A DNA stretch of 52,067 bases, from IMG/VR virus record IMGVR_UViG_3300037808_002201, positions 1 through 52,067 of that record, one strand, 5' to 3'. Positions 44,937 through 45,811 of the stretch are shown here, one piece after another (the first letter of the stretch is position 1; each line of letters begins with the position of its first letter). The stretch comes from a virus. The translations under genes were made by a program, and so were the position numbers. The notes beneath the pieces are model-generated. The model was not told where the DNA came from. It saw only the letters and a program-made list of their open reading frames with translations, and did no database searches.

Positions 44937-45811
44937 CTACTTCTTTATTATATCCTTTAATCCTCCAAAATCTTTCGGAAGCCTCATTCTATCTCCAGAA
45001 TCTTTGGAACCATTACTTGTATTATAATTAGTATTTTCATACTTCTTCTGAATCTGCTCTAAAATTTCGCTGGATATAATTTCACCATCCTCAATCCTCT
45101 TGTCAAACTCGTCTTTGGATATAAACCTATCTTCACCTGCAGCATCCCTTGCAAGCTTAATTTTCTCAACCGCCTCCGCGTTCCAAAATGAAGCAAGATA
45201 TTCAACCATATTTATTCTTTGATCATGCTCTTTGCTTAAATCACTTTGAATCATGCCGGCATACCAGTACCATTGAGCATCATTTATATTAGAAAATCGC
45301 TCATCATTTACTGCGCATCCCCATATCTTGCACAATTCCCAGCGGAGCCAGCTTTCTGGCTCCTCACTTATTTTTTTACAGTTTCTACTCCGACCTCATT
45401 ATTGGAGGTCTCAACCATACTTTCGTACTCCGAGTATAGCCTATCAATAAGTGAGAATTGCCATGACCCAATTATATCTATAGTATCCATACCTTCGCCC
45501 TTAGATAAATCACGAAGACTTGTTCCATTGATAGATATAATTGATCTTGATAAAACTATGGGCTTTATCTCAGTTAGCCTGGGATCTTCGCCTAGCATTA
45601 ATTCTGCATAAATATCTTTTTGCTGCTTTGTATTTAGCGTTTGAAGCTCAAAAGTATGACCTTGTATATCTACAGTGCTAGTAACTCTACCGAGAAAAAT
45701 TAGATCTCTTAAAGATCCAGAAAATTGCTCTTCTTGTGGCTCAATCTTTTCAATCTCCTGTGAGTCATTATTCTGGGATGCATGACTTACTGATGCTGTT
45801 CTTTTTGGCAT
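44937..45811 (-). CDS. Tail assembly chaperone long form made by -1 frameshift (gpGT-like)
   Basis: The frame between the chaperone gene and the tape measure has no good start codon; only a TTG at 45335 with poor spacing is available. It is instead entered by a -1 shift at the A_AAA_AAA heptamer (45371-45377). The fused product would have 147 upstream residues plus 144 from the second frame, 291 in all. The second part begins ISEEPESWLRWELCKIWGCA and includes NINDAQWYWYAGMIQS, WNAEAVEKIKLARDA and a polar C-terminus. This is the arrangement of lambda G/GT and P2 E/E', where the long form binds the tape measure. The feature spans both frames joined at 45371. Confidence 0.85.
45344..45377 (-). 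promoter_or_regulatory. Programmed -1 frameshift signal (slippery site plus stem-loop)
   Basis: In mRNA sense the elements are the heptamer A_AAA_AAA (45377-45371), the zero-frame UAA directly after it (45370-45368), a 7-base spacer (45370-45364), and a perfect 8-bp hairpin GGAGCCAG/CUGGCUCC with an AAAG loop (45363-45344). The heptamer phase is correct for the upstream frame (GTA AAA AAA), and a -1 slip enters exactly the open frame that leads to the tape measure gene. All parts of a canonical -1 signal are present. Confidence 0.9.
45368..45811 (-). CDS. Tail assembly chaperone short form (gpG-like)
   Basis: A 147-residue chaperone that keeps the tape measure soluble during tail assembly. 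The N-terminal ~30 residues are polar and probably disordered. The core has DLIFLGRVTSTVDIQGHTFE, LQTLNTKQQKDIYAELM and PIVLSRSIISINGTSLRDL, the beta-then-helix pattern common in tail chaperones. It ends GVETVKK and TAA, with the stop directly after the slippery A7 run. ATG at 45811 has a strong AGGAG nine bases upstream. It lies between the tail tube and tape measure genes, downstream of the terminator at 45879-45908, and so may have its own promoter. Most ribosomes should make this form. Confidence 0.85.
   Translation of the reverse strand: MPKRTASVSHASQNNDSQEIEKIEPQEEQFSGSLRDLIFLGRVTSTVDIQGHTFELQTLNTKQQKDIYAELMLGEDPRLTEIKPIVLSRSIISINGTSLRDLSKGEGMDTIDIIGSWQFSLIDRLYSEYESMVETSNNEVGVETVKK

Follow-up and report, generated by a model that had tools for sequence, protein, structure and literature searches.

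How does the second half of an overlapping gene pair in the tail region of a large uncultured virus come to be translated? The DNA analysed here, hereafter the window, is a single viral contig, 52,067 bases long, with its tail genes on the minus strand, and it carries an open reading frame of 144 codons (ORF B) that overlaps the end of a predicted tail assembly chaperone gene (ORF A) in the -1 frame and lacks a usable start. A -1 frameshift in the tail chaperone gene is a well-known device of tailed phages. We propose, with a probability of roughly 0.94, that this cassette, from an uncultured virus related to Bacillus phage G and other large phages with contractile tails, is a -1 programmed ribosomal frameshift of the tail assembly chaperone gene, with an A-B fusion as its predicted product. 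The features on which this reading is built are the following.

49825-46577, minus strand: tail sheath, 1082 residues (PHROG tail sheath families, E 3e-13)
46557-45934, minus strand: tail tube candidate, 207 residues, called by position (PHROG 985, virion structural protein, E 2e-13)
45811-45368, minus strand: ORF A, 0-frame tail assembly chaperone, 147 residues, ending in VETVKK and the stop
45377-45371, minus strand: slippery heptamer A_AAA_AAA, in X_XXY_YYZ phase, read directly
45370-45368, minus strand: 0-frame stop codon TAA, directly behind the heptamer
45370-45364, minus strand: spacer of 7 nt from heptamer to hairpin
45363-45344, minus strand: predicted stimulatory hairpin GGAGCCAG-AAAG-CTGGCTCC, 8 bp with a 4-nt loop
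45371-44937, minus strand: ORF B, -1 frame extension, 144 codons and a stop
44932-42887, minus strand: next gene, tape-measure candidate by position only, 681 residues

Re-reading of the letters found the heptamer, its phase, the adjacent TAA, the 7-nt spacer and the 8-bp hairpin with its 4-nt loop to be correct to the base as described in the first-pass annotation, and direct reading likewise bore out its open -1 frame of 144 codons without a usable start and its fusion of 291 residues. Indeed, the frame of ORF B is open from 45395, its codons being counted from ATA at 45371 to the TAG at 44939-44937, just past which lies the ATG of the next gene (44932), and reading through a -1 shift gives 147 + 144 = 291 residues. 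The first ATG, GTG or TTG of this frame is a TTG at 45335. The majority of ribosomes would read ORF A and terminate at the TAA, which in the simplest reading offers non-shifting ribosomes a defined end, while a minority, slowed by the hairpin, would re-pair one base back on A_AAA_AAA and go on for 144 codons to yield the A-B fusion. If lambda gpG/gpGT is a guide, abundant A and scarcer A-B may then cover the tape measure and bring in tube subunits.

The identity of the two proteins as a tail assembly chaperone pair is supported by their homology to gp181 and gp182 of Bacillus phage G, whose name is itself an annotation, and the tail-chaperone identity advanced by the first-pass annotation is thereby upheld. 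ORF A matches gp181 by profile comparison (hhalign 98.2%, E 3e-14; tblastn E 2e-6), and ORF B matches the frameshifted part of gp182 (hhalign 97.9%, E 6e-13), in agreement with direct tblastn. The predicted structure of ORF A also finds gp182 (E 9e-8) and gp181 (E 1e-7) as best matches, followed lower in the match list by other named tail assembly chaperones; against the PDB its top match is the HK97 chaperone 2OB9, below significance (E 0.27, probability 0.90, TM 0.58 by target). The model of ORF B is of low confidence (pTM 0.46) and matched no solved structure, and plain Pfam and PHROGs family searches gave no matches for ORF A, ORF B or the 681-residue tape-measure candidate. At the place equivalent to the latter, the phage G record annotates a tape measure. 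The cassette lies between the tube and tape-measure candidates, both called by position and from the phage G map, as in lambda and P2.

Several other genes of the window deserve mention for themselves. The tail sheath is very large and mainly its C-terminal third or less matches known sheaths. At 6620-6303 (minus strand) is encoded an A-type iron-sulphur carrier protein (Fe-S_biosyn PF01521, E 2e-17), which is unusual beside tail and fibre genes, and at 5828-230 (minus strand), beside tail-fibre genes, a run of five genes reads like putative glycosyltransferases or sugar-modifying enzymes. A protein of 3453 residues (21563-11202, minus strand) carries DGY-rich repeats (DGYSDGYLDGYSDGY), and its neighbour of 1507 residues has a similar short DGY-rich stretch.

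In-phase strong -1 heptamers are common in this AT-rich window, with 38 in 16,905 codons, but the one at 45377-45371 has the strongest 40-nt downstream fold of them all (-16.3 kcal/mol, the next best being -10.2) and alone among the 38 has a stop immediately after it. Over 68 nt the signal folds with z = -3.8 against dinucleotide shuffles, and none of 200 synonymous recodings of the -1 frame folds as well as the window hairpin (z = -4.6). No Rfam family match was found for the signal. Regarding upstream elements, the window shows a GGAG at 10 nt upstream, but such a Shine-Dalgarno stimulator is not enriched across 42 lineages. This stimulator is optional for -1 signals, as in dnaX, and is not a defining element.

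Comparison with relatives strongly favours the frameshift reading. A sheath-based search of viral contigs gave 49 loci, several of them on contigs of 211-335 kb; each locus with complete enough downstream DNA encodes A and then B in the -1 frame, and L035, whose DNA breaks off within B, has this signal as well. A profile search with ORF B, for which the heptamer was not a requirement, found 112 relatives, of which 80 were kept. The pooled sample comprises 117 loci encoding the downstream protein, which reduce to 62 distinct signal regions and to 20 clusters at 50% protein identity. Scanning viral contigs with ORF A alone gave no matches, and scanning them with the tape-measure candidate returned only the contig of a near relative (L002). 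Each of the 62 distinct relatives shows a heptamer in phase where one is expected, and B follows in the -1 frame; relatives without the heptamer, for which the first-pass annotation had proposed to look, were not found among them. The heptamer is A7 in 36, TTTAAAA in 14, AAAAAAC in 11 and AAAAAAG in 1. Synonymous identity at its two codons and at the next one is 1.00, 1.00 and 0.88, against expected values of 0.52, 0.52 and 0.40, and the lysine codons of the heptamer are thus fixed as AAA AAA. In the aligned relatives, ORF B has 30-79% identity to that of the window, with invariant residues, and to judge by this alignment it is a real protein.

For 47 of the 62 hairpins, no more than 2 of 200 synonymous recodings reach the same folding strength (mean z -4.0), and about five distinct relatives (L092, L132, L066, L080 and L085) have a weak hairpin or none in this test. 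Three geometries occur among relatives. That of the window pairs positions 14-21 with 26-33, counted from the heptamer, and its covariation exceeds that of shuffles and slid controls, although the signal is modest (0 of 500 shuffles on score, 3 of 500 on pairs changed on both sides). The second, of 10 bp with an 11-nt loop, keeps 98% of its pairs; its subgroup has six sequences, too few for a signal, and covariation there was not beyond chance. In the third, a common 3' arm (GGGAGCTT) pairs with 5' arms shifted by two to three bases between sublineages. These comparisons indicate that the downstream hairpin is under selection.

Could the two frames be joined by the polymerase rather than by the ribosome? 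Transcriptional slippage, in which an A added within the A7 run would join A and B in frame in some messages, draws on the presence of this run in the window and in 36 of the 62 distinct relatives and on the fact that A7 runs may cause transcript indels (PMC4066793). In the other 26, however, AAAAAAC, AAAAAAG or TTTAAAA stands at the same place in the phase of a ribosomal heptamer with an A run of at most six, and a selected hairpin also speaks for the ribosome. The heptamer types interchange as expected for tandem tRNA slippage, which therefore disfavours transcript slippage as the general mechanism; we regard it as very improbable in this role, with a part contribution of polymerase stuttering in A7 members still conceivable. 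Concerning the strength of the site itself, E. coli ribosomes shift less readily on A_AAA_AAA than on A_AAA_AAG (PMC5009743), and the host of this phage may differ from E. coli; no relative was found in GTDB genome contigs, which hence give no host clue.

The idea that ORF B is made alone, by re-initiation or termination-coupled initiation and not as a fusion, appears to us even less credible. It could appeal to the TTG at 45335 and to two lineages (L005/L112 and L026/L119) in which the sequence TAATG places a -1-frame ATG across the stop, but these lineages retain the heptamer too, and in 47 of the 62 the -1 frame reaches codon 20 without an ATG, GTG or TTG. Moreover, the alignment column that holds the TTG of the window is a leucine written by various codons, TTG in only 6 of the 62, and residues upstream of it (RLRW) are conserved, with upstream conservation also in phage G. 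Since a start at 45335 would cut off these conserved residues, the first-pass annotation was right to call a TTG-started gene there spurious, and the real start for the second frame that it had suggested seeking in relatives is absent as a conserved feature from the 62. The TAATG motifs are found at about 12670-12685 in L005 and about 12532-12547 in L026. As the -1-frame ATG overlaps the stop there with the heptamer kept, coupled initiation may coexist with frameshifting and could add to ORF B output in these two lineages.

The predicted ribosomal shift having been set against these alternatives, the placement of the stop raises a question of its own. The 0-frame stop follows the heptamer at 0 nt in 45 of the 62 distinct relatives and at 3 nt in 17, also standing at 0 nt in phage G (TAG) and in Eggerthella phage LE2-3 (TAA); its identity among the 62 is TAA in 41, TAG in 21 and TGA in none. 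By comparison, the authors of PRFect report a mean of 26 nt from heptamer to stop in their phage training set (PMC10885494). The stop position is clearly selected, because the B-frame codon that takes in the stop's first two bases ends in TA in every case, though synonyms are free. By codon usage, this invariant ending has P of about 1e-9 over the 20 clusters at 50% identity, treated as independent, and the same test on the third-base A gives about 2e-17 over 42 lineages at 70% identity, likewise treated as independent.

It may be argued that the adjacent stop reflects only common descent or what B must encode, and leaves the shift unaffected. All relatives indeed share ancestry, and the codon must give a hydrophobic residue (I, L or V) in the B frame; neither accounts readily for a third base that is always A despite free synonyms, at the P values above, nor for a stop that stays within 3 nt when the heptamer is moved by one codon. 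We hold this explanation to be unlikely, though it keeps appreciable weight. A stop codon in the A site would set termination in competition with any slip after translocation. Stops directly behind slippery sequences are known in Rous sarcoma virus and barley yellow dwarf virus (PMC4373837). As the same source relates of earlier work, a stop at this position lowered the shift at an HIV-1-derived site in a bacterial system, and raising the matching release factor abolished it. Release-factor competition at the adjacent stop, which the first-pass annotation had raised, is a reasonable reading by analogy because the HIV-1-derived site, in that account, lost its shift in bacteria when the release factor was raised.

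A further step, that the ratio of chaperone to fusion would be set by such competition at a stop within or beside the A site, with a preference for stops readable by RF1 (TAA and TAG, never TGA), and that in some members an RF1-like factor of their own could shift this ratio during infection, seems doubtful to us. Avoidance of TGA (0 of 42 lineages against a 9% background, P = 0.017) could point to dependence on RF1, but it was set aside and is not relied on: the value is uncorrected for relatedness, and a TGA there would also put an ATG in place whenever an A precedes it. Separately, a class-I release factor that is truncated and resembles RF1 most closely occurs in two of 14 related contigs:

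L140, 1438-2121, minus strand: RF1-like factor, in the record of L026
L139, 1450-2064, minus strand: RF1-like factor, in the record of L013

Both have GGQ and miss the N-terminal domain, the codon-recognition region reading RVPPTE in one and RVSPLD in the other. They are not linked to the frameshift signal, and as regulators they are suggestive at most.

Among known systems, the closest is Bacillus phage G (JN638751), homologous in both halves and with the same gene order. In its record the two are already labelled a tail assembly chaperone, with the reading frame given as joined and the tape measure next in line. Its signal is A_AAA_AAC with TAG directly behind, the heptamer ending in C unlike that of the window, the B extension counts 254 codons against about 146 here, and the downstream fold is weak (-6.2 kcal/mol). 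In Eggerthella phage LE2-3 (LE23_86/LE23_87), of high G+C, A is distantly homologous (95.9%, E 6e-9) and the signal, A_AAA_AAA TAA without intervening bases, is like that of the window; L054 7138-7874 is this LE2-3 locus with its stop-adjacent heptamer. As B is annotated there as a separate hypothetical protein, not joined to A, the fusion has probably been missed in the public record. Phage lambda G/GT has the same -1 shift near the end of the chaperone gene, just before the tape measure, on G_GGA_AAG with the stop 15 nt further on; no detectable sequence relation was found between its G/GT and the window proteins. In the contractile-tail phage P2, a -1 shift is annotated at the same place in E/E', and the stop follows that site after about 17 nt. 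The first-pass claim that lambda and P2 use the same design therefore holds for the shift and its location, but not for the stop, which in both lies about 15-17 nt behind the slip site. Rous sarcoma virus and barley yellow dwarf virus have alike stop-adjacent -1 sites, but they are eukaryotic RNA viruses with unrelated genes.

While the mechanism is already known from lambda G/GT and P2 E/E', the group is new and well populated, and its less ordinary feature is the strict placement of the stop together with natural variation around it. The annotation of a core tail gene is corrected for a large group of uncultured phages, in which gene callers would yield a truncated chaperone and a spurious TTG-started gene. 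The bacterial evidence on stop-tuned shifting considered here comes from an artificial construct (PMC4373837). With about 60 distinct natural signals, combining interchangeable heptamers, sliding hairpins and a fixed stop, this set could serve to ask whether bacterial frameshifting is tuned by a stop that follows the slip site.
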